From NCBI GenBank assembly GCA_024641505.1, contig JAHECY010000009.1, positions 20,091-84,090 on the forward strand: 64,000 bases of DNA, given 5' to 3'. This document shows positions 1,979 through 52,483 of the stretch, piece after piece. This stretch comes from Gammaproteobacteria bacterium. GTDB taxonomy: Bacteria; Pseudomonadota; Gammaproteobacteria; SG8-11. Each line of letters opens with the position of its first letter. Within the stretch, counting starts at the first letter, position 1. Under the pieces are notes generated by a model. That model was not told the origin of the DNA. It saw nothing but the letters and a program-made list of their open reading frames with translations, and searched no databases. The position numbers and the translations under genes are program-made.

Positions 1979-4204
1979 TTAATATATCTTACAAATCGGA
2001 TCTGAGCGATATGAGTCCCCATCTGCATTGAAGGATTGTATTTTGAAGCATATTGTATCACCTCTATTTACATTCAGCTGCGAACCAACGTTTAAAGACA
2101 ATGTATTATTTGTGGTAGTGGCGATGAGGTCACTAATAACCTCTTTACTTGAACCAACATATATCTTGTATCCGTCAACTGGATCAGTATTTTTTTCCCA
2201 CGCTAATGTAACGGTATTCGGGTTGGAGCAGGATTTACACGTAACATTAATTGTCACATTGGCTGTAGTGGTGTCACCGTCAATGTCCTTTATTATATAT
2301 GTCAGATGTTCTGTGCCGGAAAAACCAGCGGGGGGGGTATAGACTAACGAATTGTCAGCGCCAATTGTGGCGGTTCCAAACTGTACACCACTGAAGATAG
2401 CTACCGATATGGGGCCATCCGTGAGATTTTGGTCATTGGCTAATACATCAAAGATAATGGGTGATGATGAGCCCGTGGTAAATATATCATCAATTCCTTT
2501 GGGTATTGCATTTTCTGGCTGTGGGTTACCGTTAGCCACCAGGATTCCCTCAAAGTTTAATTCCGCAATTGAAGTCCAAGCATTACCGTTAACTTCCTCC
2601 AGTGCAACGATTCGGATATAACGTGACGTGGTTGTTTTGAAGAATACCTTTTTCTCATTATTTCCGTCGACAAAAGATCCTTCAACCAAAGCTACGCCCC
2701 AGTCATTGCCAGTCGTGCTGGCGTATAGAGCAAACTTACGAATGCGGCCATTGCTCATTGCTTGCACCGGCAAGTAGATTAGGCTGGAAATATCATAAAC
2801 GTCACCAAAATCGATTTGAATTTCATGAGGTATGTTATCTGTTTGACCGGAATATTTTGTATGCCAGTATGTCGCAGGGTCGCCATCAAAAGCATTGGAA
2901 GCCGCTCCATTGGCACTCAATCGCTCCTCACTATCGACGTACAATAGATTAAAGTTTGATTGCGGGATGGTTTTAACTCGCGAAATGATGGTCTGGTTAC
3001 TGGGTGCTTGATAAGGTAATTGGGCGATACTGCTGGCTTGATCATTTTGCATCCCCAATACTGCAGGATTGAGTTGTGTGATTTCCGCTGCGGCATGCGT
3101 GCTACCCGCGAGAATGACCGTGTCGATCTGCGCACCCATATCAATTTTTTCGAGAAGGGCAAGGATGGTCAATAGCTCCGGGTTTTCGTTGATCTGGTAT
3201 GCGGTATGAACTGCAGCTTTTACCTGTGTCAAGAATTGGTTGGAAATAATAAATTCGTCAAACGCAACATCATTATCTGATTGTGTTTGCGCAATAGCTT
3301 CAGTTATTGCTTTCTTGGCGTTAACTGTCCCATTTATTGTGAAGGTGTCAGAAAGAAGTTCGAGCACCAAGCTTGCGGTATTCACGTGTACAAGGAGTGC
3401 TAATTTTGGATTTCCATCCGATATGCCTATTCCATCAAGTTTTCCATCCGCCAAATCCGATGACAATTTGTCAATAAAAGTATCAAAGCTGGTTTCAGGA
3501 TATATGGACTTATATTGAGAGTAAGAGCGGCGAACAGTTTCGTATAACAACTCGCTAGCAATTACCATATTCATGATATTATTTGAGTTGATTGGTGATG
3601 TAATCGGGTTCGGGATCATGTTTCTATCAATCCCAAAATTGAAGGTATCATAGACTATCTGTACTGCGCGATTCAGGTTGTTACGGCTAAGTCCACCGTC
3701 TAATTTTGTGGCGATCAAGTAGCTAATTGTCGTAAAAGCATTTATGTTGGCAGAATGCTCTGTTGCATCGATAGCAACAGATATCATCGTATACTCTGGA
3801 TTACCACCTGTCACCAAATCAATGCCCTTGGTAGATGTTATGACGAGTGGATGTGTTGATCCTGAGGGTATTGTGATTGTATAGGTCGCTGCTTCATTGC
3901 TTGTTGCAATGGTAATAATATTGTTTTGAAAATCCTTTACCGTAATCGTTGCGCCTGCTAAGGGGCCGTCGCCTGTTCTACCGCTTATTGACAGGCCATT
4001 TTCGATCGTGACATCGGCAGGTTGTTCAACTAGATCGCTGTTCCCGGTGCTCGTGTTTGCCGGCGATTCATTTTCGGCACTAGACGTTCCAACAATGTCA
4101 TTAGTACCAAAACAAGCGGTTAAAAGGCTAAACACCCACAGATAAATAATGAATCTAGTAGTAAGTAATAATTTTCTTTGGAAACCCATGCAAGCAACAC
4201 CCAT
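1979..4204 (-). CDS. lipoprotein with F5/8 type C (discoidin)-like domain, cadherin/VCBS-like Ig domain and FnIII-like C-terminus
   Basis: 741 aa; lipobox LLTAC; YWHTKYSGQ...IQIDFGDVYDISSLIYLP discoidin-like; DVLANDQNLTDGP...YTPPAGFSGTEHLTYIIKDIDGD cadherin-like tandem type. Confidence 0.75.
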   Translation of the reverse strand: MGVACMGFQRKLLLTTRFIIYLWVFSLLTACFGTNDIVGTSSAENESPANTSTGNSDLVEQPADVTIENGLSISGRTGDGPLAGATITVKDFQNNIITIATSNEAATYTITIPSGSTHPLVITSTKGIDLVTGGNPEYTMISVAIDATEHSANINAFTTISYLIATKLDGGLSRNNLNRAVQIVYDTFNFGIDRNMIPNPITSPINSNNIMNMVIASELLYETVRRSYSQYKSIYPETSFDTFIDKLSSDLADGKLDGIGISDGNPKLALLVHVNTASLVLELLSDTFTINGTVNAKKAITEAIAQTQSDNDVAFDEFIISNQFLTQVKAAVHTAYQINENPELLTILALLEKIDMGAQIDTVILAGSTHAAAEITQLNPAVLGMQNDQASSIAQLPYQAPSNQTIISRVKTIPQSNFNLLYVDSEERLSANGAASNAFDGDPATYWHTKYSGQTDNIPHEIQIDFGDVYDISSLIYLPVQAMSNGRIRKFALYASTTGNDWGVALVEGSFVDGNNEKKVFFKTTTSRYIRIVALEEVNGNAWTSIAELNFEGILVANGNPQPENAIPKGIDDIFTTGSSSPIIFDVLANDQNLTDGPISVAIFSGVQFGTATIGADNSLVYTPPAGFSGTEHLTYIIKDIDGDTTTANVTINVTCKSCSNPNTVTLAWEKNTDPVDGYKIYVGSSKEVISDLIATTTNNTLSLNVGSQLNVNRGDTICFKIQSFNADGDSYRSDPICKIY

Positions 4205-4706: not shown

Positions 4707-6884
4707 TTAAAGAGAGATACAAATCGCATCGGAGGATCTGGACTCTAACTGATTCTGATAGGCACGTAACCTGAAGCAAGCATTGTCGCCGGCATTCAAA
4801 CCCAAATCACGGGCTGCATCAAAGGAGACAGATGGTTGTTTAGGATTGAATCCGGCTTGGTTTACCGGGCGAATCGAAACTGGGATGACGGCAGACTCAG
4901 GTGTGGGACCGTAATAAACGACATAGCCATCAATCGTATCTGAATTCGCGCTCCATTTAAATGTAACGTTGATATTTACCAGAGTGCATGCCACGCATTG
5001 AATGCGGACAAAAACTTCAGCAAAGGACACTTCGCCATTATTGTCAATAATCAAATAAATAAAACTGTCCCACCCTACAAAATTGATGTTAGGGGTGTAG
5101 GTTACAGTATTGTCGGCATTTAACACTGCAGTGCCGTTGGATGGGCTTGAGTACATTTCCACTTGTATGGGTATATTAACCAAATTGATATCATTTGCGA
5201 GCACGTCTATGTCAACGAAACTGTTCTGCAACACGATCACAGAGTCATTCTTACCAATGGGCCCATTACCGTTGGAGTTGCCTGGATTGTTTGGAAGTTG
5301 CGGCGCGGGCCGGAGTGCAGGCTCTAAGACCTCAACTTCGAGTATTCCAACCCAGTTGGTGTTATTTTCACTGGTTATGGTTATCTTCACATAACGAGTC
5401 TCTACAGTGCTTAAAGGATTTTCCGTCCAGCGTTTAGGTTCGGATTGATAGTTGGATATAGCATCCGTCCAATTTACACTATCTGTCGACAGGCTGATGG
5501 AGTAGTTGTAAGTTCGGTCCTGGTCGTAATTCAGGAAGGAAATAAGTACATTTCCAATTTTTTTAACAGTACCCAAATCGAGCGTTATCGACTGCGGCAT
5601 TCCATAGGCAGCCCAATAGGACCAACCAATACCGTCAACAATATTATCCGGGCCGTGACTTGCGTCCAGTGACGCAGTCGCGCTTACGGCAGATACGGGG
5701 ACTCTATTGACATTGTTTCGGTTTGTTGTGCCTGTAAGAGAACCGTCACGAATCGATTGGTTAACAATTTCCCATTGCTCCATGGTTCCGACGCCCGCGA
5801 CAGAATATGCAGTAGTGTAAAATTGGGAAATACTTGCGCTTGTTATCGTAGGGATGCTGTTCGAAAGGCTGCCGGGCGACGTGTTCTTAAGAATACTCTC
5901 AACTTTCAGGACATCGACACTGTAAGATAACTCCAGTACTGCATTTACCGCGTTCCGTGCCTGTTCGAGCAATACGTTCGATATCGTGGCGTCTGACTCC
6001 ATGCTGGCGGATACTGGAAGCCCCGGCATGACTGTATGAAGGGCCTGCTCAATTGCGTCAAAGCCCAGTTGCCCGTCAACTGCTAGATTGTTGGATAATA
6101 CTTCAACTGCAATTTGGGCCGAAAAAATATTTGCAACTGCGGCATAAAGCGGGTCCGCGTTCTTCGCGCCAATGCCGTCCAAAACGCCATCGGTGAGGTC
6201 TCCTGCGATTGAATCGACAAGTTCGTCATAGGACAGATCAAAATCGTGCTTCGTCAATGAAAGAAGTGCATAGGTCCGCTTAATCATTTCAGCAAGCGCT
6301 TCACCAGCCTTAACGATAGTGGCAATGTTTGACTTATCGATCGGCGTATAAAGCGGGTTGGGAATTTTTGTCAGGTCAAGACCAAAATTCAATTGCTTGA
6401 TTACAATCGCCGTCATATGGTCGACATTTTGCCGAGTTAAGCCGCCAGGTAGAAATTTGGCGCCTTTGGCAATTAATGTCGAGAACGGGTTTAAGTTAAC
6501 AGTCTGCTGAGTTTTCGAAGGAGCGATAGAAAATAGCGTGAATGTCGGTGCTTTTTTGGTCACGGTATCAATTCCGCCAGCTGCGGAAATGAGTACTGGA
6601 TATGTCATATCAGGCGGAATTTGTACCGTGTATGAGGCGGAGCCATTGTCAGATATTGACGTAAATGCAACGCCATTGCTGCCTCTGAAAGTTATAGCTG
6701 CGCCAATTATGGGTCCATCACCTACGCTTCCATAATGCACGCTGGGTGTGGGTTCTTCTTTGGCGGGTGTCGACGACACGTCATCTGACTGCGGGCTTTG
6801 GCTGCAACTCCAGAGGAAAATTAATGCATATGCATAAACAATGCGATTTAAGAGAGTCGTCAACACCAATTCTTTCTTCCCCAC
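4707..6884 (-). CDS. lipoprotein, paralogue of the 1979-4204 product (discoidin-like + Ig-like + FnIII-like)
   Basis: 725 aa; lipobox FLWSC; same domain order and shared motifs (GDGPIIGAAITF, GLTRQNVDHM, IPNPLYTPI, VLANDINLVNIPI, YTPNINFVGWDSFIYLIIDNNG). Confidence 0.75.
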   Translation of the reverse strand: MGKKELVLTTLLNRIVYAYALIFLWSCSQSPQSDDVSSTPAKEEPTPSVHYGSVGDGPIIGAAITFRGSNGVAFTSISDNGSASYTVQIPPDMTYPVLISAAGGIDTVTKKAPTFTLFSIAPSKTQQTVNLNPFSTLIAKGAKFLPGGLTRQNVDHMTAIVIKQLNFGLDLTKIPNPLYTPIDKSNIATIVKAGEALAEMIKRTYALLSLTKHDFDLSYDELVDSIAGDLTDGVLDGIGAKNADPLYAAVANIFSAQIAVEVLSNNLAVDGQLGFDAIEQALHTVMPGLPVSASMESDATISNVLLEQARNAVNAVLELSYSVDVLKVESILKNTSPGSLSNSIPTITSASISQFYTTAYSVAGVGTMEQWEIVNQSIRDGSLTGTTNRNNVNRVPVSAVSATASLDASHGPDNIVDGIGWSYWAAYGMPQSITLDLGTVKKIGNVLISFLNYDQDRTYNYSISLSTDSVNWTDAISNYQSEPKRWTENPLSTVETRYVKITITSENNTNWVGILEVEVLEPALRPAPQLPNNPGNSNGNGPIGKNDSVIVLQNSFVDIDVLANDINLVNIPIQVEMYSSPSNGTAVLNADNTVTYTPNINFVGWDSFIYLIIDNNGEVSFAEVFVRIQCVACTLVNINVTFKWSANSDTIDGYVVYYGPTPESAVIPVSIRPVNQAGFNPKQPSVSFDAARDLGLNAGDNACFRLRAYQNQLESRSSDAICISL

Positions 6885-7696: not shown

Positions 7697-8413
7697 ATGC
7701 AGAACCCAGGTAATCAAATGAATTTTAGATGGAATTTCCTCGTTCAGATGTGGCCATTGGTGTTTCTGTTTGGCGCAGCCGACATCCAGGGCGCAAATTT
7801 GGATTTCATTCCAGTCACCAGTGGTGCGGTGGCGCCAAACTCCATGGAAACGGCCGATGATTACATTATCGGTCCCCAAGATCTGCTTGAAGTGCAGGTC
7901 TTCCAGGCGGAGGATTACAAGGTCAGCACGCGTGTCAGCGAACAAGGGTATGTTTCGCTGCCATTGATTGCTCGGGTGCATGTTTCGGGATTAACCGTCG
8001 ACCAGCTTGAAGACGTTCTTGAAGCACGCCTCGGGCAGGATTATTTCCAAGATCCGCAGGTAACGGTATTTGTCAAAGAGTTTACCAGTCAACGTGTGAC
8101 CGTGGAAGGCAGTGTTATCAAGCCAGGCGTGTATCCGCTCAAGGGCCGAACGACACTGCTGCAGGCTATTGCCATGGCGGAAGGGGTCAGCGATCTTGCC
8201 GATCACTCCAATGTGCAGATTTACCGTGTAGGTGACAAAGAGAAAGCTACTGAAGTTCATGATTTGGAAAAAATACGCGCGGGCGAGGCGGTCGATCCGG
8301 TGGTCAATGGTGAAGACGTCATTGTTATACACCGATCCGAAGCCAAGTCATTCGTGAAAAACATAACCGATACCCTCAGAGGATTTGTGTCATTTGGCAC
8401 GGTAAGGCCGTAA
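7697..8413 (+). CDS. polysaccharide export protein (Wza-like, SLBB domain)
   Basis: 238 aa; YIIGPQDLLEVQVFQAEDYKVSTRVSEQGYVSLPLI and VTVEGSVIKPGVYPLKGRTTLLQAIAMAEGVSDLAD; next to tyrosine autokinase; alternative start at 7718. Confidence 0.9.
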   Translation: MQNPGNQMNFRWNFLVQMWPLVFLFGAADIQGANLDFIPVTSGAVAPNSMETADDYIIGPQDLLEVQVFQAEDYKVSTRVSEQGYVSLPLIARVHVSGLTVDQLEDVLEARLGQDYFQDPQVTVFVKEFTSQRVTVEGSVIKPGVYPLKGRTTLLQAIAMAEGVSDLADHSNVQIYRVGDKEKATEVHDLEKIRAGEAVDPVVNGEDVIVIHRSEAKSFVKNITDTLRGFVSFGTVRP

Positions 8414-8437: not shown

Positions 8438-10684
8438 ATGGAAAACCAGGACATGATGACAAGCCATCGGATCGGCAACCTGAGACCTGATCAGCGTCGC
8501 GATTCATCGCAAGGTTACATTGAAAGTGACGTCGTTTATGTCGAGGATGACGAAATTGACCTTCATGCCCTTTGGGATATTATTTTACGTCGGCGTTGGC
8601 TTATCCTGCTGGTGCTTTCCGCGTCATTGCTCGGCACTGCGTTGGCCACCTACCTGACCACACCAATCTACCGCGCCACCACAACCCTGCAGATCAATAA
8701 GGAAACCGCCAAGATATTTCAGTATCAGGATGTATCGCCGGTGGAAACCGATTTCTATGACCAGGATTTCCTGCAAACACAGTATGAATTGTTGCAAAGC
8801 CGCACCCTGACGAAACGTGTTATTGATCAGCTTTCTCTGTACAGCAACCCGGATTTTATTCCGGTTCAGCAGGATATAAGTATTCGTAAACTTCTGGGAC
8901 TCGTTGTTGACTCCAAAGCCGACATGAATGATCCGGAGCGTTTTGTCGATAAGTTTCTGAAAGATCTCGTGGTCGAACCGGTGAAACGTTCCCGTCTGGT
9001 ACGCATACATTATAACAGCGCGAATCCCCAGTTAGCAGCGACCATTTCCCGGACGGTCGCCGAAAGTTTTATTAATCTAAATCTTGAACGCCGCTTCGAT
9101 GCGTCTTCATACGCTAAAAATTTCATATCCGACCGCATACGCGAGGTTAAAAGCCGTTTGGAAGAATCGGAGCGGAAGCTGGTGGGATATGCGCGCAAAC
9201 TGGAAATTGTCAGTCTTGATGAGGAGCGACAACCGCTTATTTTGCAGCAATTGCAGGAGACAGGACTGAGTTTAGCCAAGGCGGAGCAGGAACGGATATC
9301 CGCGGAAGTGGCGTATCGGGAGATGACTCAGGGCGAGGGCCGGGTGTTCAGTAATGTATTGGCAAATCCCGTGGTGCAAGAATTAAAGCACGAGATCGCC
9401 AAACTTGAATCCGAATACCAGGAGAAGCTGCAGATCTATAAACCGGCTTATCCCTCCATGTCGCAGTTACGCAAGCGCATTGTCAGCCTGCAGGACAAGA
9501 TCGACGCGGAGGTCGTATTGTTGACCCGCGCCTATGAATCCGATTATCTTTCTGCATTCCATAAACAGGAGAGTTTGGCGGCCAGGCTGGAAGAGCTTAA
9601 GCAGGAAGCGCTGAATCTTCAGGATAACAGCATTAATTACAGTATCCTGAAACGCGAGGTGGATACTAATCGTCAACTGTACGAAGGTCTGTTACAACGC
9701 CTCAAGGAAGTGGGGGTGGCAGGTGGTGTGGGAGTCAATAACATCTCCGTAGTGGATTATCCCGAGGTGCCACGATTCAGTTTCAAGCCAAATTTGCAGT
9801 TGAATTTGTTGCTGGCATTTATTGTTAGCCTGTTCGCCGGTACGGGGCTGGCTTTTCTGGTCGAATATTTCGATGACAGTGTCAAGTCAGTGGATGATCT
9901 GGAAAACAAGAGTCAAATACCGGTTATTGGCGCCATACCAGACGTCTCCTACTTTCACTCTGAAATTCTTGGCGCCCAGCAAATTGGCCTGCTGTCCTTT
10001 ACGCAGCCCGACAGTATATTGGCCGAAGCTTTTCGTTCCACTAGAACATCTTTGATGTTTTCCGGTCCTAATGGCGCGCCGGCCGTAATGCAAGTCACCA
10101 GTCCCAGTCCGGGCGAGGGGAAGACCACCTCCGCGGTTAATATTGCCACGGCATTTGGTCAAATGGATGCCAAAGTATTGATTATTGATGCGGATTTAAG
10201 GAATCCATCGATTCACCATGTCTTGGGTTTGTCGAACCAGCGAGGGTTAACTAATTATCTGGTGGGAGAGGTATCCGCTGCGGAAGTTTCCTGTTACACG
10301 GGCATCGCTAAAATTTTTGCGATCCCCGCAGGGCCAATTCCCCCGAATCCGGCGGAACTGCTCTCCGGCGGACGATTGAAAGACCTTCTTATGTTGGCAG
10401 AGCAAAAATTTGACTATGTCGTTGTCGATGGTCCTCCGGTAATGGGTTTGGCAGATGCGTTGATTCTGGCAAATCAGGTTCACGGTACGCTTGTGGTGGC
10501 AGAGAGTGGAGGGACTCGGTATCGGGATATGGAGCACGCGTTGAAACGGTTGCGCAGTACCCACGCAAGACTGGTGGGCTGGGTATTATCAAAGCATCGC
10601 ATGGGGCGCGGCGGTTACGGTTACCACTCTTATTATTATGGAAGTGAAAAAAATCTACCAACAGCTTCCCCGGTTCAATTATAA
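8438..10684 (+). CDS. polysaccharide biosynthesis tyrosine autokinase (Wzc/BY-kinase)
   Basis: 748 aa; Wzz domain, GNVR-like coiled coil, Walker A SPSPGEGKTTSAVNIA, Walker A' VLIIDADLRNP, Tyr-rich C-terminus GYGYHSYYYGSE. Confidence 0.92.
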   Translation: MENQDMMTSHRIGNLRPDQRRDSSQGYIESDVVYVEDDEIDLHALWDIILRRRWLILLVLSASLLGTALATYLTTPIYRATTTLQINKETAKIFQYQDVSPVETDFYDQDFLQTQYELLQSRTLTKRVIDQLSLYSNPDFIPVQQDISIRKLLGLVVDSKADMNDPERFVDKFLKDLVVEPVKRSRLVRIHYNSANPQLAATISRTVAESFINLNLERRFDASSYAKNFISDRIREVKSRLEESERKLVGYARKLEIVSLDEERQPLILQQLQETGLSLAKAEQERISAEVAYREMTQGEGRVFSNVLANPVVQELKHEIAKLESEYQEKLQIYKPAYPSMSQLRKRIVSLQDKIDAEVVLLTRAYESDYLSAFHKQESLAARLEELKQEALNLQDNSINYSILKREVDTNRQLYEGLLQRLKEVGVAGGVGVNNISVVDYPEVPRFSFKPNLQLNLLLAFIVSLFAGTGLAFLVEYFDDSVKSVDDLENKSQIPVIGAIPDVSYFHSEILGAQQIGLLSFTQPDSILAEAFRSTRTSLMFSGPNGAPAVMQVTSPSPGEGKTTSAVNIATAFGQMDAKVLIIDADLRNPSIHHVLGLSNQRGLTNYLVGEVSAAEVSCYTGIAKIFAIPAGPIPPNPAELLSGGRLKDLLMLAEQKFDYVVVDGPPVMGLADALILANQVHGTLVVAESGGTRYRDMEHALKRLRSTHARLVGWVLSKHRMGRGGYGYHSYYYGSEKNLPTASPVQL

Positions 10685-10823
10685 ATAGTGTGAGCCGCAG
10701 GCGTGTATATGTATGGATGAAAGGTGCCAATACCTGCAATGTAAGCTTTTTGTAAGTAGACCACTGTATTCTCCCTTATTTTGCCGTAGAACAGATTCGG
10801 TATAAGATTTTGGTATAAGAAAT

Positions 10824-10839
10824 TTATCGTTAACGATAA
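10824..10839. promoter_or_regulatory. 16 bp perfect palindrome TTATCGTTAACGATAA (putative operator)
   Basis: read directly; intergenic between the tyrosine kinase and the 838 aa ORF, followed 5 bp later by a TTGACA hexamer (10845-10850). Confidence 0.45.
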
Positions 10840-10993
10840 TGAAATTGACAGATTAATTATGGTAAAATGCAAATCCAATCGCGGATAGGGATACGTCTCT
10901 TGGTTGGTCTCAGTTATTGTCAGTAGTGAACTGGTTCTCCCGGCTAAAGGGGGAAGGGTTACTTTAAGTATCAGCCATGGTATTTAACATAAT

Positions 10994-13510
10994 ATGATAG
11001 GGTCAGGGTTACAGAAAAAAAATATGCCAAAGAACATTTTTCAATTGGCACTTGATTTTTACCGATCACCCACGGAATTTGGTGACTTGGTCGACGTTCA
11101 TAAATCCGTTCCACAAGGAATCGGTGATTTGTTAGCGTTTCTTGCCGGACCGGACCAGGAAAGAGTAAGGATTATTGGCAACAATGTCTCGTTACAGGGG
11201 GCTGGCGAGTTATTTGATGCCGCTTCCTACTTCGTGGAAGAAGTGTTGTTTGTCCCGGGAGCGGATTATTACCGGTTGCTGGGGGTTCGAACGGACGCCA
11301 GCGCAGATGTGGTACGTCAACATTACCAATATTTGATCGGCCTGTTCTACCAGGACGAGCGCAGCAGCATGGTTAATTGGAAAGAGTCCGATTCCATGCG
11401 GGTTAATCAGGCCTACAGTGTGCTGCGCGATCTCGAAAAACGTCGTAATTACAACGTCAAACTCGCCGCGACGGGGCGTCAGATCGAGCAATTTGATCCG
11501 ACAACCTATAAAAAACAGGAACGTACACGCCAAAAACCGCTAGAGACGCATAACGAAAATACCGTGATAGCTCGGTCTGCCGACACGGATGTGTTAGGCT
11601 CTGGGAAGGTCAAGCGCGAAGCCGAACAGGTGTTGGCCGATGCGGTCCGTCTGGCCAGCAACCATGTTTCCGCAAAATCTGATGTTATTCCTGCGGTGAA
11701 AACGGTAAGTGCGCACGCGCCCAGGACCGCTGCCAGTGCGGATGATCTTCCAAAAATTTTGATCTGCGATGACTCCGCAACAGTGCGTGCCAGTCTCGCC
11801 AAAGCTTTATCTAATGATTTTCGGTGTTTGCGCGCGCGCAATGGCGATGAAGGATGGCGCATCCTTCAGGACAACCCGGATGTGAAGTTGGTGCTGACCG
11901 ATCTGGAAATGCCGGAAATGGACGGCTATGCACTGATCACGAAAATTCGAGCCAGCGATCGACCGAACCTGGCAAATATCCCGATTATCATCGTAACCAG
12001 TGCCTCAGACACCAAAGCGAAACAACTGGCCCTGGGTAAGGGCGCCAGCGACTTTCTTGCCAAGGGAACGGACTATGTGGAAATTCTGGCCCGCGTGCGC
12101 GTGCACTACCGGCTGGCAAAGTCCACGGAATTGATACCAGAGTCCGTGCCGACCGTTCACACCCGGTCAAGTGTAGCTGCACCGGATGACGAAGAAAAAA
12201 CCGTGTTTCTGGACCTGTCGAAAACGCGCATGCCCATTGATGCACGGGATCGAGATCCATCTGCCCGGCGCGGTGGTGTCGAGAAATCCGCCTGGCTGCC
12301 AAAGCCGGTGCTTATCGGGGCGATGAGTCTGGTGGTCGTCGTTGTGTTGGCGCTGATGTTCAGCAGCGGCAATAAGGAGGCGCCGGAGACATCCGCGCAA
12401 GTAGCGGGTTCCCCAGCGAACGGTGCCCCGGGTGATGAAGTTGCACCGTCTGCTGCCACTGCTCCCGCGGAGGATACCAATCAGCTTACTGTACTCGACG
12501 TGGTAAAACCTGACACCGCGGCTGGTGCGCAGCCGGTAGAATCGGCACATAGCACGACCAAACCCTTGGTTTCCGTTGTCTCCAAGACTGCTTCGCGGGA
12601 AGTCAGCACCAATAAACCTTCCAAAGATAATGCAGCCCTCGTCGATCGCTCCGCGGAGCAACGTCGGAAGGAATCGAGTTTTCGCAAGAACAATTTGGCG
12701 GATGCGACGGAAATCATTCCGACGGTTGTCACGGATGTACCGGCAAATTCCGCACCCGGCACTGATGCCGCTGGTGAACCCCAGGATCCGGAAGAGACAC
12801 AAAAAATTAAACAACGCCTGGCGGAAATTGAGGCCGAGAGCATGGCGATGGCAGTTCGGAATGAACAGCCTGCCAACGATGAATTTGATGCGCTGGCGCC
12901 TTCGACGCAGGTTGCAGCCAAGGGAGACGCGCCTATCGGCAGCGGCGTTGGCAGTGGTGTGAATGCCATCTCGGCAATGGGCAGCGCTGTTACGCCATCG
13001 GTAGGCGCAGCGAACGCCGTTGCCTCAGTTGCACCAGAGGGCGTGGCGGATCCTTTTAATACGACGATACCTGCCGAAGACGACGGTGATGGAAAACAAG
13101 TCGCTATGGCCGAACCTGCTAAACCTGTGATGCGGGATCTGATCAGTTCCACGGAGTTATCGATACTGTTGTTCAAATTCGTACGCGCTTACGAAGAAGG
13201 CAATCTGTTTCAGTTCCTGGGCCTGTTCGATCCGGATGCCCGCACAGAAGATCGCGTTGGGATACGCGAAATTCGCAAGGACTATGAATTGTTGTTCAAG
13301 AAGTCCGATGTACGCCAGTTCATTATTCAGGACATGAATTGGACCAAAGAAGGTATTCGCGCCGTAGGCAAAGGGAAGTTTGAAGTCAAGATCAAGGCGC
13401 AGGGCAGCGATAAAATGAATGCTTACTCGGGGACAGTGACGTTCCATGTGGTAAAAAGAGCTGATGAGATCTTCGTCACCCAACTATTTCATTCCTACGC
13501 TCAACAATAA
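10994..13510 (+). CDS. degenerate J-domain / receiver domain / TM / NTF2-like protein
   Basis: 838 aa; YYRLLGVRTDASADVVRQHYQYLIGLFYQDE...VNQAYSVLRDLEKRRNYN (J-like, HPD->YQD); KILICDDSATVR...VLTDLEMPEMDGYALI...FLAKG (REC); TM VLIGAMSLVVVVVLALMF; C-terminal NTF2/SnoaL-like domain; possible downstream start at 11024. Confidence 0.8.
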   Translation: MIGSGLQKKNMPKNIFQLALDFYRSPTEFGDLVDVHKSVPQGIGDLLAFLAGPDQERVRIIGNNVSLQGAGELFDAASYFVEEVLFVPGADYYRLLGVRTDASADVVRQHYQYLIGLFYQDERSSMVNWKESDSMRVNQAYSVLRDLEKRRNYNVKLAATGRQIEQFDPTTYKKQERTRQKPLETHNENTVIARSADTDVLGSGKVKREAEQVLADAVRLASNHVSAKSDVIPAVKTVSAHAPRTAASADDLPKILICDDSATVRASLAKALSNDFRCLRARNGDEGWRILQDNPDVKLVLTDLEMPEMDGYALITKIRASDRPNLANIPIIIVTSASDTKAKQLALGKGASDFLAKGTDYVEILARVRVHYRLAKSTELIPESVPTVHTRSSVAAPDDEEKTVFLDLSKTRMPIDARDRDPSARRGGVEKSAWLPKPVLIGAMSLVVVVVLALMFSSGNKEAPETSAQVAGSPANGAPGDEVAPSAATAPAEDTNQLTVLDVVKPDTAAGAQPVESAHSTTKPLVSVVSKTASREVSTNKPSKDNAALVDRSAEQRRKESSFRKNNLADATEIIPTVVTDVPANSAPGTDAAGEPQDPEETQKIKQRLAEIEAESMAMAVRNEQPANDEFDALAPSTQVAAKGDAPIGSGVGSGVNAISAMGSAVTPSVGAANAVASVAPEGVADPFNTTIPAEDDGDGKQVAMAEPAKPVMRDLISSTELSILLFKFVRAYEEGNLFQFLGLFDPDARTEDRVGIREIRKDYELLFKKSDVRQFIIQDMNWTKEGIRAVGKGKFEVKIKAQGSDKMNAYSGTVTFHVVKRADEIFVTQLFHSYAQQ

Positions 13511-13639: not shown

Positions 13640-14905
13640 GTGATTTCAAAGCAAATACGCCAAGTCAGCGTGCGGGTGGCTGCCGCCGGCGTCCTGTCAT
13701 TAACCATTCTGATAGTATGGCGAATTGCTTCGTACGGGATCAGTGAAACCTTGACGCAATACGCGTTATACGACCAATCCTCTCCTTCTGCCCTTAATAC
13801 CGCACTCGCCTGGTCGATGGATAACTCCAATACGTTGTATAGGGTCGCTTATTCGTTTGATGAACGACATCTTGAACAACGTATAGAGTACCTCTCAGAC
13901 GCGCTTAAATTGAATCCTGGCGATGGTCGTATTGCCATGAGTCTTGCTGCTTCCCTTAAACAATTCGGGGATAAGGAGCGCGCAGACGCATTTGCTGACC
14001 AAAGCGTAATACTGTTACCTGACGACGCCAATACCTTGCTTCAAGCGGGGGATTATTGGTGGCGCGGGGGAGAGTATTCCCGTGCGGTGGAGTCTTGGGG
14101 GAGGGCGTTGTCCCATGAACCGGCTGTGAATCAAAAATTATTCCCGGTGTTTCTGCGCATCATGGAACAGGCTGGTGGTATGGAAGTGATGCGTGACACC
14201 TTGATCGCTGTACCCGCCTGGTTTAACGATTTCTTCGAATATGTGATGACCAACGCCAGTAACGACCAACTGGTGAGGCGACTTTTTGCCTTGCGTAACG
14301 AGGCTGCGGTACCGGTGACATTGGCGGAACAAAAATCTTATTTGCGTTTTCTGGAAGCGGAACGGCGTTGGGACGAAGCTTTCGTGGTATGGGCCAATAG
14401 TCTGCGCCGGGAAAATCTGAGCGTAATGGGGCAGCCGGTCAATGGCGGTTTCGAAGTCGAGCCGACCGGAGTGGGATTCGATTGGCGCGTTCGGGAAGAT
14501 CCCGCAGTATTGATCAAGACGGATTACACTTACGGGATCAGCGGCCATAAAGCGCTTCATATCATATTTCGCGGGCAGCGCGTCAATTTTCGTCATATTG
14601 AACAGTTGATGATATTGCAGCCCCGTAAATACCGTTTTCGTGGTCAGGTTCGGCCCGACAGCTTGCAGGCGGCTGCAGGAGTGCAGTGGCAACTGACGTG
14701 CGTTGGCGGTAAGGAGCAGCCCTTTGCGCGCAGCAATCGATTTATCGGTGTCGATCAGTGGCGTACATTCTCCTTTGATTTCAAAGTTCCCCGACAGGAC
14801 TGTGATGGGCAGGTGCTGCGCCTGGTATCAGTGACGCAAGGCGTTGAAGACCCTGTCTACAAGGGGGAGATATGGTTTGATGACTTGAGTATCGAAGCGT
14901 TGTAG
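13640..14905 (+). CDS. TPR protein with C-terminal jelly-roll/carbohydrate-binding-like domain
   Basis: 421 aa; helical repeat region (LKLNPGDGRIAMSLAASLKQFGDKERADAFADQSVILLPDDANTLLQAGDYWW) then NGGFEVEPTGVGFDWRV...EIWFDDLSIE typical of CBM4/9-like folds. Confidence 0.6.
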   Translation: MISKQIRQVSVRVAAAGVLSLTILIVWRIASYGISETLTQYALYDQSSPSALNTALAWSMDNSNTLYRVAYSFDERHLEQRIEYLSDALKLNPGDGRIAMSLAASLKQFGDKERADAFADQSVILLPDDANTLLQAGDYWWRGGEYSRAVESWGRALSHEPAVNQKLFPVFLRIMEQAGGMEVMRDTLIAVPAWFNDFFEYVMTNASNDQLVRRLFALRNEAAVPVTLAEQKSYLRFLEAERRWDEAFVVWANSLRRENLSVMGQPVNGGFEVEPTGVGFDWRVREDPAVLIKTDYTYGISGHKALHIIFRGQRVNFRHIEQLMILQPRKYRFRGQVRPDSLQAAAGVQWQLTCVGGKEQPFARSNRFIGVDQWRTFSFDFKVPRQDCDGQVLRLVSVTQGVEDPVYKGEIWFDDLSIEAL

Positions 14906-15006: not shown

Positions 15007-15537
15007 TTGGAGGTGGTTATGAAAACCTGGGTGGGGTCTATTCTAACAGTCTATATCTTCGTTCTGGGTGCTCTCGTGCCGTTTCCAATGGCGTTGGCGC
15101 AGGGTGGTAATGAGGTATCGGTGTATTCTTTGGGTACGGAATCGGACCTGGGCTTCGAAAAGGCCCGAGGCGCTTTGGTAGAAGCATTTATTGATGCTTA
15201 TTCAAAGGGAGAAACCGATATATTCCTGAGATTATTCAGCGATAATGCCCGTGCCGATGATAAGATAGGCAAGTCCGGCATTCGGTCGGATTATGAAATG
15301 CTGTTTACCGGCAGCAGGAGTCGGATTATTCGACTCCAAAACATAAAGTGGCACAACAAGAAAGGCGACGACAGTTACGCGATCGCCGATTTTGAGGCAC
15401 GAGTCATCCCCAATGACAAGGATCAGGAAAAAATCTACCGCGGTGCCATTGAATTGCATGTGAAAAAAGAAAATAATAACATTGTAATCAGTGAGCTGTA
15501 TCATGCCTATGATAATGCTTCCGTGGCCACACAATAA
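15007..15537 (+). CDS. secreted NTF2/SnoaL-like protein
   Basis: 176 aa; signal peptide ending PMALA; clear similarity to the C-terminal domain of the 838 aa protein (GIRSDYEMLF...ELHVKKENNNIVISELYHAY vs GIREIRKDYELLF...TFHVVKRADEIFVTQLFHSY). Confidence 0.7.
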   Translation: MEVVMKTWVGSILTVYIFVLGALVPFPMALAQGGNEVSVYSLGTESDLGFEKARGALVEAFIDAYSKGETDIFLRLFSDNARADDKIGKSGIRSDYEMLFTGSRSRIIRLQNIKWHNKKGDDSYAIADFEARVIPNDKDQEKIYRGAIELHVKKENNNIVISELYHAYDNASVATQ

Positions 15538-15554: not shown

Positions 15555-16136
15555 ATGAAGATTCACAAATTTGTCACCTGTGCATTCACTTGCATGGTTT
15601 GTCTCAGCAGTTCTTTGGTTTTGGCGAATTCAGAGAATACAGTTCAGCTAAAACGACTGGAAGGGACGGTATTAGTGAATCAAGGCAAGGGGTTTTCGTT
15701 AGCGGCGCCGGGTATGCAATTGCAGCCTGGAAGTCGTGTGCTGGTCATGTCGGACGGTGGTGTAAGCGTAGTTTTCTCCGATACCTGCACCATAGATATT
15801 GCTGCTAACAGCATATTTAGCTTGGGGAATACCCGGAGCTGCGAGCAGTTACGCAAACAAATCCAGACCGTGGGACCCTATTATGCTGCCGCCATAGGTG
15901 TCGAAGCCGTTGGTGATGCTAAGTCACCAGGTAAAACACGCACTGATGCCGGTGACGCAGGCACTGGCGGTGACGCAGGGGCTGCTGCTGCGGGTGGGGA
16001 GCCGGAAGTGGTATTCGCAGGCATGTCGATGAATGAAATTATCGTCGTGGGTGTTGGTGTCGGTGCTGGGTTGGCCGTGGTAGTGGCAAGTGGTGGCGGT
16101 GGTAACAAGAGCAACGGTGCCATCAGTCCGGAATAA
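15555..16136 (+). CDS. FecR-like exported protein with Gly-rich C-terminus
   Basis: 193 aa; signal peptide; VQLKRLEGTVLVNQGKGFSLAAPGMQLQPGSRVLVMSDGGVSVVFSDTCTIDI resembles FecR/DUF4384-type beta domain. Confidence 0.5.
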   Translation: MKIHKFVTCAFTCMVCLSSSLVLANSENTVQLKRLEGTVLVNQGKGFSLAAPGMQLQPGSRVLVMSDGGVSVVFSDTCTIDIAANSIFSLGNTRSCEQLRKQIQTVGPYYAAAIGVEAVGDAKSPGKTRTDAGDAGTGGDAGAAAAGGEPEVVFAGMSMNEIIVVGVGVGAGLAVVVASGGGGNKSNGAISPE

Positions 16137-16144
16137 TTGCTGGC

Positions 16145-17644
16145 ATGCAATTCTACAATTTTTTCTCATGGGATAAACCGTCCTATAATCAGCGATTGTT
16201 GTTTATCGCCCTGTTGTTGATTTTCTTTTTTGCACCGTTATTTCGTGCGGCGAATCGGCCCTTTCCTCTGATGATCACCGAGTTGGCAGCGCTCTGGCTG
16301 CTGTTCTATTGTGTGATCCAACGGCCGGGGTTCAGGTCGTTGAGAATGGATCTGCGGATCTTGCTGGGCGCGGTGCTGGGTTTTCCGTTGCTCTATCTTA
16401 TGCCTCTGCCTTTCGATTGGTGGGCCGCATTGCCGGGACGGGACATATATGGCACGACATTGAAGTTAATTGATTCACAGTCCTATATGTCGGTGTCCGT
16501 AATGTCGGTAAAAACCGAACAGGCGTGGTTGGCTTTGTTACCCCCGGTTGCCATCTTTACTGTCGTTTCCCTGTTGGAGGTAGGCCGGGTAAAAGCACTG
16601 GTAGCAGCATTTCTCGTCATTGCCTTTGGTGAAGCATGCCTTGGGCTCATTCAATACGGAGATGGTCCGCTTAGTATCTTGCGCCTGGGTAATCCGTATA
16701 ACGATAGCAGCGCAGTGGGTACCTATATTAATCGGAATCACCTCGCTGGACTGTTGGAAATGGCGCTGCCTGTTGCCTTGGGCATGCTGGCAGCAACCAT
16801 CGGCCGCAGTCGTTCCCAGCTAAGTTACGCGCGTAATTTTAAGGAAAAAGCCCTTGGGTTTATTGACAACTTCTCGCAAAACGCAGTGGTGCATGCGTTT
16901 ACATGCGTGGTGATATTGCTGGGATTGGTGTTTACCCAGTCCCGTAGCGGTGTGGGGTTGGCGATGATAACGATATTGCTGGCGATGATTGCCTATGCGC
17001 GCAGGTTGGGCGGTACCAACGTCTTTGGATTGTTTGGAACCTTGTTCGCCGTGGTGCTGGGGGCGGGAGTGTTAACCGGCTTGGCCCCGGTGCTCAGCCG
17101 ATTTACGGTAGACCCTCTGGCCGACAATCGGTGGGAAATTTTCAGTTTTAGCCTGCGGGGTATTGGCGAGTTTTTTCCGGTGGGCAGCGGCCCAGGGACA
17201 TTTCCTTATGTGTTTCCACGCTTTCAAATGAATATTGATGGTTTTGTCAACCATGCGCATAACGATTATCTCGAATGGTTATTCGAGGGTGGATTACTTG
17301 CCGCCCTGCTAATGTTCGCTATTATCGTGGTGTTTCTGCGGCAGTGGCCGCGTCTCTGGATAACTGAGCGTTGGAGTGAGTTTCGATTCATGAAAATTGG
17401 CGCCGGGATCGGCGTGTTTGCCATGATGCTCCATGGGATGACGGATTTTAACTTGCATATTCCCGCCAATGCGCTATTTTTTGCGTTTCTTATGGCGGTG
17501 TTTTTTCATTCCGGCGATGAAGCAAGCAACGTTGATCGTGCTACGCGTAACCATCGGGATGCAGGAATGTCCCGGATTCCCGTGCCGATTCTTCCCAAGC
17601 CAGATGCGGCCACCGCCCCCAAGAATCCATTTCTGGAAGAGTGA
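16145..17644 (+). CDS. O-antigen ligase / Wzy-type polymerase family membrane protein
   Basis: 499 aa; polytopic; FTQSRSGVGLAMI and VNHAHNDYLEWLFEGGLLA motifs of the Wzy_C family. Confidence 0.85.
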   Translation: MQFYNFFSWDKPSYNQRLLFIALLLIFFFAPLFRAANRPFPLMITELAALWLLFYCVIQRPGFRSLRMDLRILLGAVLGFPLLYLMPLPFDWWAALPGRDIYGTTLKLIDSQSYMSVSVMSVKTEQAWLALLPPVAIFTVVSLLEVGRVKALVAAFLVIAFGEACLGLIQYGDGPLSILRLGNPYNDSSAVGTYINRNHLAGLLEMALPVALGMLAATIGRSRSQLSYARNFKEKALGFIDNFSQNAVVHAFTCVVILLGLVFTQSRSGVGLAMITILLAMIAYARRLGGTNVFGLFGTLFAVVLGAGVLTGLAPVLSRFTVDPLADNRWEIFSFSLRGIGEFFPVGSGPGTFPYVFPRFQMNIDGFVNHAHNDYLEWLFEGGLLAALLMFAIIVVFLRQWPRLWITERWSEFRFMKIGAGIGVFAMMLHGMTDFNLHIPANALFFAFLMAVFFHSGDEASNVDRATRNHRDAGMSRIPVPILPKPDAATAPKNPFLEE

Positions 17645-18877: not shown

Positions 18878-21697
18878 ATGGAATTGTACAGAAATATTTC
18901 TCAAACAGTCACCAGGATAATTGACGTGATCGGCATTGCCAAGGTCCGGATTGGATTATGTCTGATATTGATGATGTTGACGCAGTCCGTGTTCGCCAGT
19001 GTCGAAACGGGCGACCAAGCCTTGGAAAAAGGGGATTACGTGGCCGCCTTGCAGATCTGGAAACCACTTGCCGAACAAGGTAATGCGCAAGCGCAGATAC
19101 GTATTGGTGATTTGTACCGCAAGGGGTGGGGTGTGCGCCGGGACTTCAAAGCGGCATTTTCCTGGTATGAGAAAGCCGCGAGCCAGGGCGATCCCGAGGG
19201 GCAATACCAGTTGGGTAGTCTGTATCGGAACGGGATGGGCACCAGGAAAAATCTGGATGAAGCCGTTAGATGGTTTGAGGAAGCGGCCAAAAAGGGCTAC
19301 GACAAAGCTGAATTCAGTTTTGCGGTGATGTTGGAGAATGGTTGGGGTGTCGAAGAAAATGCCAAGCGTGCGCTGATCTGGTACGGTCGGGCCGCCAAGA
19401 AACAATATGCGCCGGCATTGAAGCGTCTTATGGAGTTGGAGAAGGAAGGTATCAAACCCGTAGTGGAAATAAAATCCGACGAAGATATTCCTCAGATTTT
19501 TTCCAGCGCCTTGCGTGACGGTAACGTCGACCAGGTCAATGCGATACTCCAGAAAGTAAAGAATGTAGATTATAAACTGGACAAATATCAAAATACTCCG
19601 CTGTTGCTCGCGGCTCAATATGGGCACGATGGTCTTGTGCAGTTGTTGCTTGAGAAAGGGGCTGCCGTTGATCACGCCAATCAACAGGGAGTAACCGCCT
19701 TGATGCGTGCCGCCAAGGCAGGCAGCGTGCGGGCAGTACGCGCGCTATTGAAGTACAACGGGTCTATGAATCATCAGGACGAGTTAGGTCGCACCGCGCT
19801 GATCGAGGCTATCAGTGATAACAAGAGCCAGGTGGTATCGCTGCTGTTGGGCAGCGGCGTGGATGTAAATCTCGCCGACAAAAAGGGGTGGTCACCGTTG
19901 TATCATGCGTTAAGAATCGATGAAACCCAGATTCTTGATATGCTGCTGCACTCGCCCGCCAAGGTGAATTACAAGGACAGCAGCGGTATTCCTATACTTC
20001 ATTATGTAATACAGCAGAAAAAACAGAATGTGCTGAATAAGCTGCTGGCGGCGGGAGCGGATGTCAACATTACCGATGCCATCGGTCAGAATGCCATGAT
20101 GGTCGCCGCTGACCTCGGCTATGCGCCCGCAGTCACCGCGTTGTTGGCCAAAGGCGCTGATTCACGTGTCAAGAATAACGAGGGCTGGACGCCGCTGATG
20201 CTAGCCGCGAAATCTGGCAGCAGTGCCTCGGTGGAAGCGCTGCTCAAGGCTGGAAATTCGGCGGATTTGCAGAACGAATATGGTGACACCGCGCTTATGC
20301 TGGCGGCCGGTAAAGGATTCGATGCGATTGTATCCTCCTTGATCAGCCACCGCGCGAACATCGATATGAAAAACAAGCAGGGATGGACCGCCTTGATGTT
20401 TGCCTCCCAAGCGGGATCGGCTGCCACCGTTAACACACTATTGCAGGCCGGTTCCGGTATCAATATAGTGAACAACCTGCAGGAATCTCCTCTGATGCTT
20501 GCCGCGGAAAGAGGGCACTTGGAAGTAGTGCGTGTGTTGGTAGCCAAGCGGGCGGATATTAACAGTAAGAATCGTGCCGGGCACAGCGCCGTGACACTTG
20601 CCGAAGCCAAGAACCAGAATTTGATTTTGAAATTCCTGCGCAGCAAAGGCGGTATCCTGTACAAGGTGGTGGAGACTCCTGAGTTAGAGCTAAAACGTCA
20701 GGATCAACGCCGGCAACAAGATCTGTTCAAGGGTTGGACCGAGCTGATGATCGCCGCCTGGAACGGTAAAATACTGGATGTTAACAACCTTCTGCGATCG
20801 GGTCAGCAGAAAGACGCCCAGAATCCCGATGGCATGACGGCGCTGATGCTGGCTACGGGCAAAGGAAATGCCGATGTCGTGCAATCCTTGCTTACCAACC
20901 AGGTGGACATCAATAAACAGGCGCGTAACGGCCGTACCGCGCTGATGATTGCTTTGGACGAAGGGCAATTCGATATCGCACGCCTGCTGCTGCCGTATAA
21001 ACCCCGACAGGACCTTGCGGACAAGCAGGGGCAAACCGCACTATTCTACGCCGTCGACAAACGCCAGCTGGCTTTGGTGCGCGATCTTCTGAAAGCGGGT
21101 GCCGATATCAGCAAGCGTACGGAGAATGGCGATACACCGCTGACGGACGCTTTGAAAAACAGCGCGGACGATATCGCCGTGTTCCTGGTAAATGCCGGTG
21201 CCGGAATCCACTGGATGGATAACGACGGCAGAAATATGTTGTGGCTGGCCGCGCGTTACAAAAATGACAATGCGGTTCGTTTGTTGATAAAGAAAGGATT
21301 GGATATCAATCACCGCAAGCATAACGGCGAATCCATTGCTATGGCTGCGGTGCGTAGTGGTGACGCCAAACTGGTTGATTTCCTGTTTTCCATTGGCGCG
21401 GACCTGCGTTCCACGGATCAGCAGGGTAATACCGCTTTGCATATTGCCAGCGATACCGGCAATCTTGAGATCGTTAAACTGTTGATCAAGTCAGGCGTCG
21501 GCGTCAACACTGAAAATGAAGTGTGGTCGACACCCATCATATTCGCCGCGTCCAAGGGGCATCTGGCGATTGTTACCTACCTCGTGGAGCATGGGGCGGA
21601 ACTGGATATCAAGAACAAAACCGGTGACACACCCTTCAGCATCGCCACTAGCCACGGCTACAAGGACGTGGCCAGTTATATCCGGCAGAAGTTATAG
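18878..21697 (+). CDS. Sel1-repeat and ankyrin-repeat protein
   Basis: 939 aa; three N-terminal Sel1 repeats (GDLYRKGWGVRRDFKAAFSWYEKAASQG) followed by a long ankyrin array (GWTPLMLAAKSGSSASVEALLKAGNSADLQNEYGDTALMLAA). Confidence 0.9.
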   Translation: MELYRNISQTVTRIIDVIGIAKVRIGLCLILMMLTQSVFASVETGDQALEKGDYVAALQIWKPLAEQGNAQAQIRIGDLYRKGWGVRRDFKAAFSWYEKAASQGDPEGQYQLGSLYRNGMGTRKNLDEAVRWFEEAAKKGYDKAEFSFAVMLENGWGVEENAKRALIWYGRAAKKQYAPALKRLMELEKEGIKPVVEIKSDEDIPQIFSSALRDGNVDQVNAILQKVKNVDYKLDKYQNTPLLLAAQYGHDGLVQLLLEKGAAVDHANQQGVTALMRAAKAGSVRAVRALLKYNGSMNHQDELGRTALIEAISDNKSQVVSLLLGSGVDVNLADKKGWSPLYHALRIDETQILDMLLHSPAKVNYKDSSGIPILHYVIQQKKQNVLNKLLAAGADVNITDAIGQNAMMVAADLGYAPAVTALLAKGADSRVKNNEGWTPLMLAAKSGSSASVEALLKAGNSADLQNEYGDTALMLAAGKGFDAIVSSLISHRANIDMKNKQGWTALMFASQAGSAATVNTLLQAGSGINIVNNLQESPLMLAAERGHLEVVRVLVAKRADINSKNRAGHSAVTLAEAKNQNLILKFLRSKGGILYKVVETPELELKRQDQRRQQDLFKGWTELMIAAWNGKILDVNNLLRSGQQKDAQNPDGMTALMLATGKGNADVVQSLLTNQVDINKQARNGRTALMIALDEGQFDIARLLLPYKPRQDLADKQGQTALFYAVDKRQLALVRDLLKAGADISKRTENGDTPLTDALKNSADDIAVFLVNAGAGIHWMDNDGRNMLWLAARYKNDNAVRLLIKKGLDINHRKHNGESIAMAAVRSGDAKLVDFLFSIGADLRSTDQQGNTALHIASDTGNLEIVKLLIKSGVGVNTENEVWSTPIIFAASKGHLAIVTYLVEHGAELDIKNKTGDTPFSIATSHGYKDVASYIRQKL

Positions 21698-51277: not shown

Positions 51278-52483
51278 TCAATCCTTGATCGTGGATTTGA
51301 TGTTTTCGATCAGTTTCGCCAACGCATTCAGGTCGACTTCGTCGCCACCATAGTCATTTGCCAGTTCCAGAAGGGGGATGGCTTTTTCCAGCAAGTAGGG
51401 TAAATGCACCAGCAAAGATTCGATGTTTCCATGTTCAATCATTTGCAGCGCACCTTCAAGTTTCGGACGTGTGGGATTGTTTTCCGCCAGTTCACCCAAT
51501 TTCTCGTTGGTGTCGGAAGCACATACCCGGTTGCGTCCCCGCGCTTTTGCGGTATAAAGCCGGCCATCCGCTTCGGTAATCAAGGCTTCCAGATTGACCT
51601 CGGTGTTAGGGTCGGAGGCGGCCAAGCCGAGGCTCAGGGTCACCTGCAGGCGGTTATCGTTGTAAATGAATTCGTGTTCTTCGATGTTTTTGCGCAGGCG
51701 CTCGGCCAATACCAGACCGGCCATCAAATTGGTATAAGGGGCAATGATAATAAATTCCTCACCACCGATACGCGCCAGCACATCGCTTTCCCGTACTACG
51801 CTTTCGAACACCCGGGCGGTGGTTTTTAATACATAATCACCGGCTTGGTGGCCGTAGGTATCGTTGATGGCCTTGAAGTGATCAAGGTCCATCATGATAA
51901 TGCTGAAATGTTCGGATTGCCGCTGCATCAACGCCATCATATTCTCGGTTTTTGAGAAGAAACACCGGCGATTGATCAATCCGGTAAGCGCATCGGTATC
52001 CGCCTGGGACTTCAGGATGCGGCGGCTTTCTTCCAACTGGCGAATGGTCTGTGCCAGTTTCTGGTGCACCCGAACGCGGGCAAGCAATTCAACCTTATCG
52101 AATTTTTTTGGTACGAAATCATTGGCTCCGGCGATAAATGCGTCGGATTTTATTTTGATGTCTTCTGATCCGGCCAGCACGATTACCGGCATATTCATTA
52201 AATGACGCTTGCCGGAACTACGCATCTTGCGCAACAACTCCAGGCCATTCATCACCGGCATGTCGAGATCGGAGATGACCAGGTCGATGTTATTATCTGC
52301 GTCGAGAATATTCCAGGCTTGGCTGCCGTCACCGGCTTCCTTGATGGTGATGTCCGAAGGCATAGTCCGAGCCAAGCTGGCCCGAATGGTGGTGGAATCA
52401 TCCACGACCAGGATGGTGCAACTTCCTGTTTCAGCATCAATCAGGGGATCGACCACTAATTGTGGTTGGACTTCACGGGTCAT
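51278..52483 (-). CDS. receiver-GGDEF response regulator (diguanylate cyclase)
   Basis: 401 aa; REC (VVDDSTTIRAS...VISDLDMPVMNG) plus ARIGGEEFIIIAP with upstream RESD (I-site RxxD). Confidence 0.93.
   Translation of the reverse strand: MTREVQPQLVVDPLIDAETGSCTILVVDDSTTIRASLARTMPSDITIKEAGDGSQAWNILDADNNIDLVISDLDMPVMNGLELLRKMRSSGKRHLMNMPVIVLAGSEDIKIKSDAFIAGANDFVPKKFDKVELLARVRVHQKLAQTIRQLEESRRILKSQADTDALTGLINRRCFFSKTENMMALMQRQSEHFSIIMMDLDHFKAINDTYGHQAGDYVLKTTARVFESVVRESDVLARIGGEEFIIIAPYTNLMAGLVLAERLRKNIEEHEFIYNDNRLQVTLSLGLAASDPNTEVNLEALITEADGRLYTAKARGRNRVCASDTNEKLGELAENNPTRPKLEGALQMIEHGNIESLLVHLPYLLEKAIPLLELANDYGGDEVDLNALAKLIENIKSTIKD

Follow-up and report, generated by a model that had tools for sequence, protein, structure and literature searches.

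Introduction

Accounts of how Wzx/Wzy-type polysaccharide assembly is controlled mostly centre on tyrosine phosphorylation and c-di-GMP. Regulation by protein contact is represented by EpsW, a single-domain response regulator that acts in this way on EPS synthesis (PMC12802240). The HPD motif is established in the role that J-proteins play with DnaK, and Pam16, a J-like protein devoid of HPD, binds and regulates Pam18 (PMC12953747). Among periplasmic proteins, the NTF2 domain of Bd1075 targets its enzyme, and that of Pgp2 binds peptidoglycan fragments (PMC8938487).

We analysed a gene in an EPS operon of a Gammaproteobacteria bacterium (GCA_024641505.1, contig JAHECY010000009.1) whose product combines J-like, receiver and NTF2-like domains. 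The whole stretch of 64,000 nucleotides under analysis is referred to as the window, and the product of the gene as the window protein. With DnaJ/Hsp40 J-domain proteins, the latter shares a fold region above the Pfam cut-off and the helix III–IV signature NQAYSVLRD.EKRR, but it lacks HPD, is membrane anchored, has a helical N-terminal domain instead of a client-binding C-terminal part and would not be expected to stimulate DnaK. Pam16/Tim16, from the mitochondrial import motor, is likewise an HPD-less J-like domain on a membrane machine with HPD-bearing relatives; however, no homology is detectable beyond the J fold, and Pam16 possesses neither receiver nor NTF2 domain and has Pam18 and Hsp70 as partners. 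By analogy with EpsW from Myxococcus xanthus, the receiver may control a Wzx/Wzy EPS pathway through protein contact rather than DNA binding, although EpsW is a free single domain on a phosphoglycosyl transferase, whereas the receiver studied here is built into a transmembrane protein. Bd1075, Csd6 and Pgp2 have a C-terminal NTF2-like fold within a periplasmic protein, which is joined to an LD-carboxypeptidase in these enzymes and to a transmembrane (TM) helix plus a putative cytoplasmic signalling part in the window protein. Finally, the same NTF2 module is carried in related genomes by ExeA/GspA-type AAA ATPases, a group whose C-terminal domain is periplasmic; some of them also bear the N-terminal and J domains (N-J). 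An ATPase domain is absent from the window protein. Members of the ExeA-type ATPase family are known to bind peptidoglycan in the periplasm. EpsW, Bd1075 and Pam16 are partial precedents rather than full homologues.

Results

Domain architecture

The features of the gene and its operon are listed in Table 1. An ATG at 11024 provides a possible alternative start, and relatives start there. Pfam returned no family beside DnaJ for the N-J region. In AlphaFold predictions, the cytoplasmic part was poorly modelled overall (mean pLDDT of 60.8), with blocks of the N-domain mostly at 75–86 and a poor stretch around position 44–55 of the model. When this part was submitted to Foldseek, only the receiver and J parts stood out, with the solved J-domain 2och among the matches of the latter, and no identity was obtained for the N-domain. 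To avoid circularity, the J profile was built from the 30 HPD-intact relatives only, with exclusion of the window sequence. It matched residues 14–154 at E 7e-29, and none of 2000 shuffled sequences matched. The position of HPD between helices II and III is occupied by YQD in the window protein and by YQE in its counterpart from the sister genome L021.

The receiver retains the response-regulator residues, namely the acid pair D259–D260, the phosphoacceptor D303, T335 and K357. Its closest matches in sister genera were receiver-GGDEF proteins (43–47% identical), and it appears to derive from a protein of that type. A receiver-GGDEF diguanylate cyclase is also encoded within the window (51278–52483, minus strand), with a receiver 41% identical to that of the window protein. 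The operon genes examined included no histidine kinase that could act as its partner.

Hydropathy analysis revealed one TM peak, at residues 439–457, consistent with an N-in topology that would place the N-domain, the J-like domain and the receiver in the cytoplasm and the NTF2-like domain in the periplasm. The assignment of the C-terminal domain as NTF2-like rests on profile and fold because the Pfam match alone, to SnoaL_2 at residues 728–819, falls below the cut-off (17.5 versus 27 bits). A profile derived from 23 HPD-intact relatives, again excluding the window sequence, matched the C-terminus at E 7e-25. With AlphaFold, the domain was modelled at a mean pLDDT of 91.4, and this model yielded a best Foldseek E-value of 2.3e-8 and a TM-score of about 0.8, with the periplasmic protein Bd1075 among the structural matches. 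The signal peptide of the small NTF2-like protein encoded downstream (15007–15537) was read by eye. Of note, the same NTF2 domain ends ExeA-type ATPases without a J module at five loci (L022, L023, L025, L027 and L028).

The original prediction, made from the sequence alone, had called a J-like region with a lost HPD, an intact receiver, a TM helix and an NTF2-like domain. These calls are upheld by Pfam, hydropathy, the independent profiles and the fold match. In particular, the J-like region is real, with a Pfam score above the cut-off, the HPD-only profile match and YQD in place of HPD; the receiver has a highly significant Pfam match and every key residue in place; and neither the J-like nor the NTF2-like region is spurious, as profiles lacking the window sequence find both.

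Table 1. Features of the EPS operon and of the gene at 10994–13510 (coordinates of the window).
Feature	Coordinates	Strand	Basis
Polysaccharide export outer-membrane protein, Poly_export + SLBB	7697..8413	+	Pfam
Wzz/GNVR co-polymerase with tyrosine autokinase domain	8438..10684	+	Domain search
20-bp block GATTAATTATGGTAAAATGC	10851..10870	+	Identical in both receiver-bearing genomes within a diverged spacer; by eye
Whole ORF: N-domain + J-like + receiver + TM + linker + NTF2-like	10994..13510	+	838 aa, open frame; layout repeated in L021
N-terminal helical domain, residues 11–80, ~70 aa	11024..11233	+	Family-conserved in alignment; 83% identical to L021; no Pfam match
J-like domain, residues 91–154	11264..11455	+	Pfam DnaJ (PF00226) E 3.1e-8, 34 bits vs cut-off of 27.8
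YQD codons (TAC CAG GAC) replacing HPD, residues 119–121	11348..11356	+	Sequence reading
Receiver domain, residues 255–369	11756..12100	+	Pfam E 1.6e-20; D259, D260, D303, T335, K357 present
Single TM helix, residues 437–460	12302..12373	+	Hydropathy 2.79 over residues 439–457; present in nearly all relatives
Pro/Ala-rich low-complexity linker, residues 461–720, predicted periplasmic	12374..13153	+	Poorly conserved: 37% identity to L021 vs 80% for NTF2 domain
C-terminal NTF2-like domain, residues 723–838	13160..13507	+	Profile, AlphaFold, Foldseek
TPR protein, C-terminal part weakly carbohydrate-binding-like	13640..14905	+	Domain search; conserved operon neighbour
Small secreted NTF2-like protein	15007..15537	+	34% identity to C-terminal domain of the 10994–13510 product, E 4.3e-15; profile E 8e-22
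FecR/LapA-retention-like secreted protein	15555..16136	+	Weak match below cut-off; conserved neighbour
Wzy_C / O-antigen-ligase-type protein	16145..17644	+	Pfam

Operon and surroundings

The gene lies in an EPS operon, as originally proposed and now confirmed by the detection of Poly_export, Wzz/GNVR/AAA tyrosine kinase and Wzy_C ligase domains. A spacer of 309 bp (10685–10993) separates it from the kinase gene, which in most relatives it closely follows. The conserved block within this spacer resembles an extended −10 promoter element and suggests that the J gene may have a promoter of its own. Rfam detected no RNA element over the EPS region, and a sigma-54 promoter was discarded, given that the pattern matched no more often than expected by chance. 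CpsB is absent from the operon, and a relative with 35% identity is found elsewhere in the same genome. Loss of this phosphatase was therefore dropped as the cause of HPD loss, as no strict link exists between the two.

Next to the operon, two minus-strand genes (1979–4204 and 4707–6884) encode paralogous secreted lipoprotein-like proteins that contain F5/8 type C and bacterial Ig domains. In L024 and L032, relatives of these proteins flank the J-TM-NTF2 gene. A 939-residue Sel1 and ankyrin-repeat protein is encoded right after the operon (18878–21697, plus strand), and it occupies the same place in L021.

A second genome and constraint by domain

The same domain order was found in L021 (Proteobacteria bacterium UBA6920, DKAS01000214.1), which belongs to the same genus and encodes an 842-residue protein of 60.7% identity with identical architecture and gene order. 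This locus bears on whether the gene could be chimeric or mis-assembled in a metagenome bin, as might be suspected from a genome of 222 contigs with 3% contamination. The independent UBA6920 genome shares the full architecture, the synteny and the conserved upstream block, which rules out an assembly chimera and leaves an artefact of this kind with a negligible probability. Those genomes close to the window that carry names are metagenome-assembled, and just two genomes have so far yielded the receiver-bearing form.

Constraint was judged from the contrast between domains instead of from dN/dS, which was set aside because synonymous sites are near saturation. Identity between the window protein and its L021 counterpart amounts to 83% for the N-domain, 78% for the J-like domain, 82% for the receiver and 80% for the NTF2-like domain, compared with 27–48% for the linkers and 54–69% for the other operon proteins examined. 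Since the J-like domain is so well preserved relative to the diverged linkers, these identity levels indicate that it is still under selection despite the lack of HPD.

A family in EPS operons

Roughly 1000 genomes were searched, and 53 family members were read. The shared layout begins with a helical N-domain of ~70 residues, a J domain and a TM helix; beyond these come a linker, which is coiled or of low complexity, and an NTF2 domain at the C-terminus. In most members the gene occupies an operon slot beside those for Poly_export, Wzz/tyrosine kinase, TPR, FecR-like and ligase proteins, often with CpsB. Hosts include several gammaproteobacterial orders, with Competibacteraceae represented by L033, as well as one Nitrospirae genome (the bin L036) and two further Pseudomonadota genomes (L111 and L112), whose short form lacks TM and NTF2 but lies in the same kind of operon. 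Across a broad phylum sample, the family is rare, occurring in four of 398 genomes, including that of the window.

The window protein belongs to this family by its match to the N-J profile, by a TM segment followed by the NTF2-like domain and by its operon neighbours. It departs from the usual receiver-less state, which is not an essential feature, and is thus a rare receiver-bearing variant of a family of Wzx/Wzy-type EPS operons. The receiver itself, found in two of the 53 members (the window protein and L021), is a late and rare addition. The original assessment had overlooked the underlying family of N-domain, J, TM and NTF2. Literature searches, in which subscription papers were incompletely covered, returned no description of the family, and its HPD-intact majority apparently represents a J-protein, anchored in the membrane and dedicated to EPS operons, that has gone undescribed.

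Distribution of HPD

HPD is kept in 30 of the 54 N-J domains and lost in 24, which corresponds to 30 proteins with and 23 without the motif. EPS genes adjoin all 30 HPD proteins, and the canonical operon holds four of the 23 HPD-less ones (the window protein, L021, L073 and L078). The association with operon context is significant (Fisher p 7e-11), although the sequences are related and hence do not represent 30 independent events. A tree was computed with IQ-TREE after removal of the motif columns, on which the HPD label required three changes, compared with 18 in shuffles, with at least two changes forced by well-supported branches. The window protein grouped with L021 and L029, an HPD-less paralogue from the genome of the window, within a weakly supported HPD-less set of 21 (66/93). 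The mean number of Lys/Arg residues in helix II was 2.4 in HPD-less and 3.5 in HPD proteins (p 0.0002, uncorrected for phylogeny).

YQD is real, as first read, but it is no oddity of the window protein alone: the loss marks a branch comprising 23 of the 53 proteins, and the commoner members keep HPD. As far as the sequences tell, this is an old HPD-less branch, which is also the source of the modules fused to ExeA-type ATPases. Since HPD is retained by those members that occur more often in this operon, the ancestral role of the family may well involve DnaK.

HPD-less modules are found in other layouts as well, either behind ExeA-type ATPases or with TPR repeats (L073). ExeA-type AAA ATPases are fused to an HPD-less N-J module at L072, L076, L077, L080, L081, L083 and L084, where the module is usually followed by a TM helix and one or two NTF2 domains. 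The paralogue L029 (8072–9850, minus strand, on contig C4 of the window's genome) combines N-J with two FHA domains, has FKT in place of HPD and is encoded near an ExeA-type ATPase gene. In L085 and L086, N-J-TM is followed by a periplasmic end read by eye as PstS-like (phosphate-binding protein) instead of NTF2; no Pfam match was seen for L086.

Discussion

On balance, we consider it probable, by a modest measure, that the window protein acts at the inner membrane as a subunit of the EPS machine, with a regulatory or scaffolding role, and that in this protein DnaK recruitment was probably given up and phosphorylation added. As a single-pass subunit of a Wzx/Wzy-type machine, it would hold its N-domain, J-like domain and receiver in the cytoplasm beside the Wzc-like kinase and its NTF2-like domain, tethered by a long flexible linker, in the periplasm. 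Ancestors in the same operon slot would have had a working HPD J-domain, probably bringing DnaK to the machine, and the HPD-intact relatives probably still do so. Since HPD was lost in the window lineage, the J-like module would most likely serve as a binding or dimerisation surface, with a receiver of the receiver-GGDEF type inserted between it and the TM helix. Phosphorylation of D303 may then alter the oligomeric state or the contacts of the cytoplasmic part and, via the helix, affect the NTF2 domain, which possibly acts in concert with its secreted NTF2 homologue. The domains, the intact phosphorylation residues, the conserved operon slot, the HPD pattern across the family and the constraint on the J-like domain are observed, and the topology, phosphorylation, partners and effect on EPS are proposed by inference.

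Alternatively, the J-like domain might still take part in the Hsp70 cycle in the manner of Pam16 (PMC12953747). It would pair either with DnaK or with a J-protein that has HPD and regulate recruitment under gating by the receiver. Strong conservation of the J-like fold at 78%, the occurrence of HPD-intact sister proteins at the equivalent operon position and nine J-domain matches in the genome, canonical-length DnaJ-type proteins among them, are all in line with this proposal; however, the operon has no HPD-bearing J-protein, and the positive charges of helix II are depleted in the HPD-less group (uncorrected for phylogeny), so that we regard it as unlikely. Less credible still, the receiver could be a mere phospho-dependent dimerisation or phosphate-sink module from a receiver-GGDEF protein, with the J-like part as a passive spacer. 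Its resemblance to receiver-GGDEF proteins, including the one within the window, and its confinement to two family members agree with such an origin, but the J-like domain is conserved like the receiver and the NTF2-like domain, unlike true spacers.

The NTF2-like domain could instead be a periplasmic enzyme or glycan binder working on polysaccharide or peptidoglycan, with the cytoplasmic part mainly anchoring and positioning it. In its fold, the domain resembles NTF2-like enzymes as well as the NTF2 domain of Bd1075, ExeA-type ATPases terminate in the same module, and the Bd1075 and Pgp2 domains provide targeting and peptidoglycan binding, respectively (PMC8938487). Nevertheless, the invariant residues of the domain (Y, G, L, Y, F, R and G) include no obvious catalytic set, and this reading is possible but somewhat doubtful.

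The proposed regulatory subunit also permits a wider, rather tentative scenario, in which the membrane-anchored J-protein of EPS operons brings DnaK to the co-polymerase/kinase, and the window lineage has swapped this chaperone input for a two-component input through loss of HPD and insertion of the receiver, with the N-domain, J fold, TM helix and NTF2 domain kept. The locus points to a conserved EPS component, a bitopic J-domain protein that occupies the same slot in many lineages and whose motif is usually DnaK-competent. The window variant, with the motif lost, a receiver added and the scaffold unchanged, constitutes a natural test of the role of the J module. If the scenario is true, proteostasis and two-component signalling would be linked to EPS and the biofilm matrix, including in wastewater Competibacteraceae.
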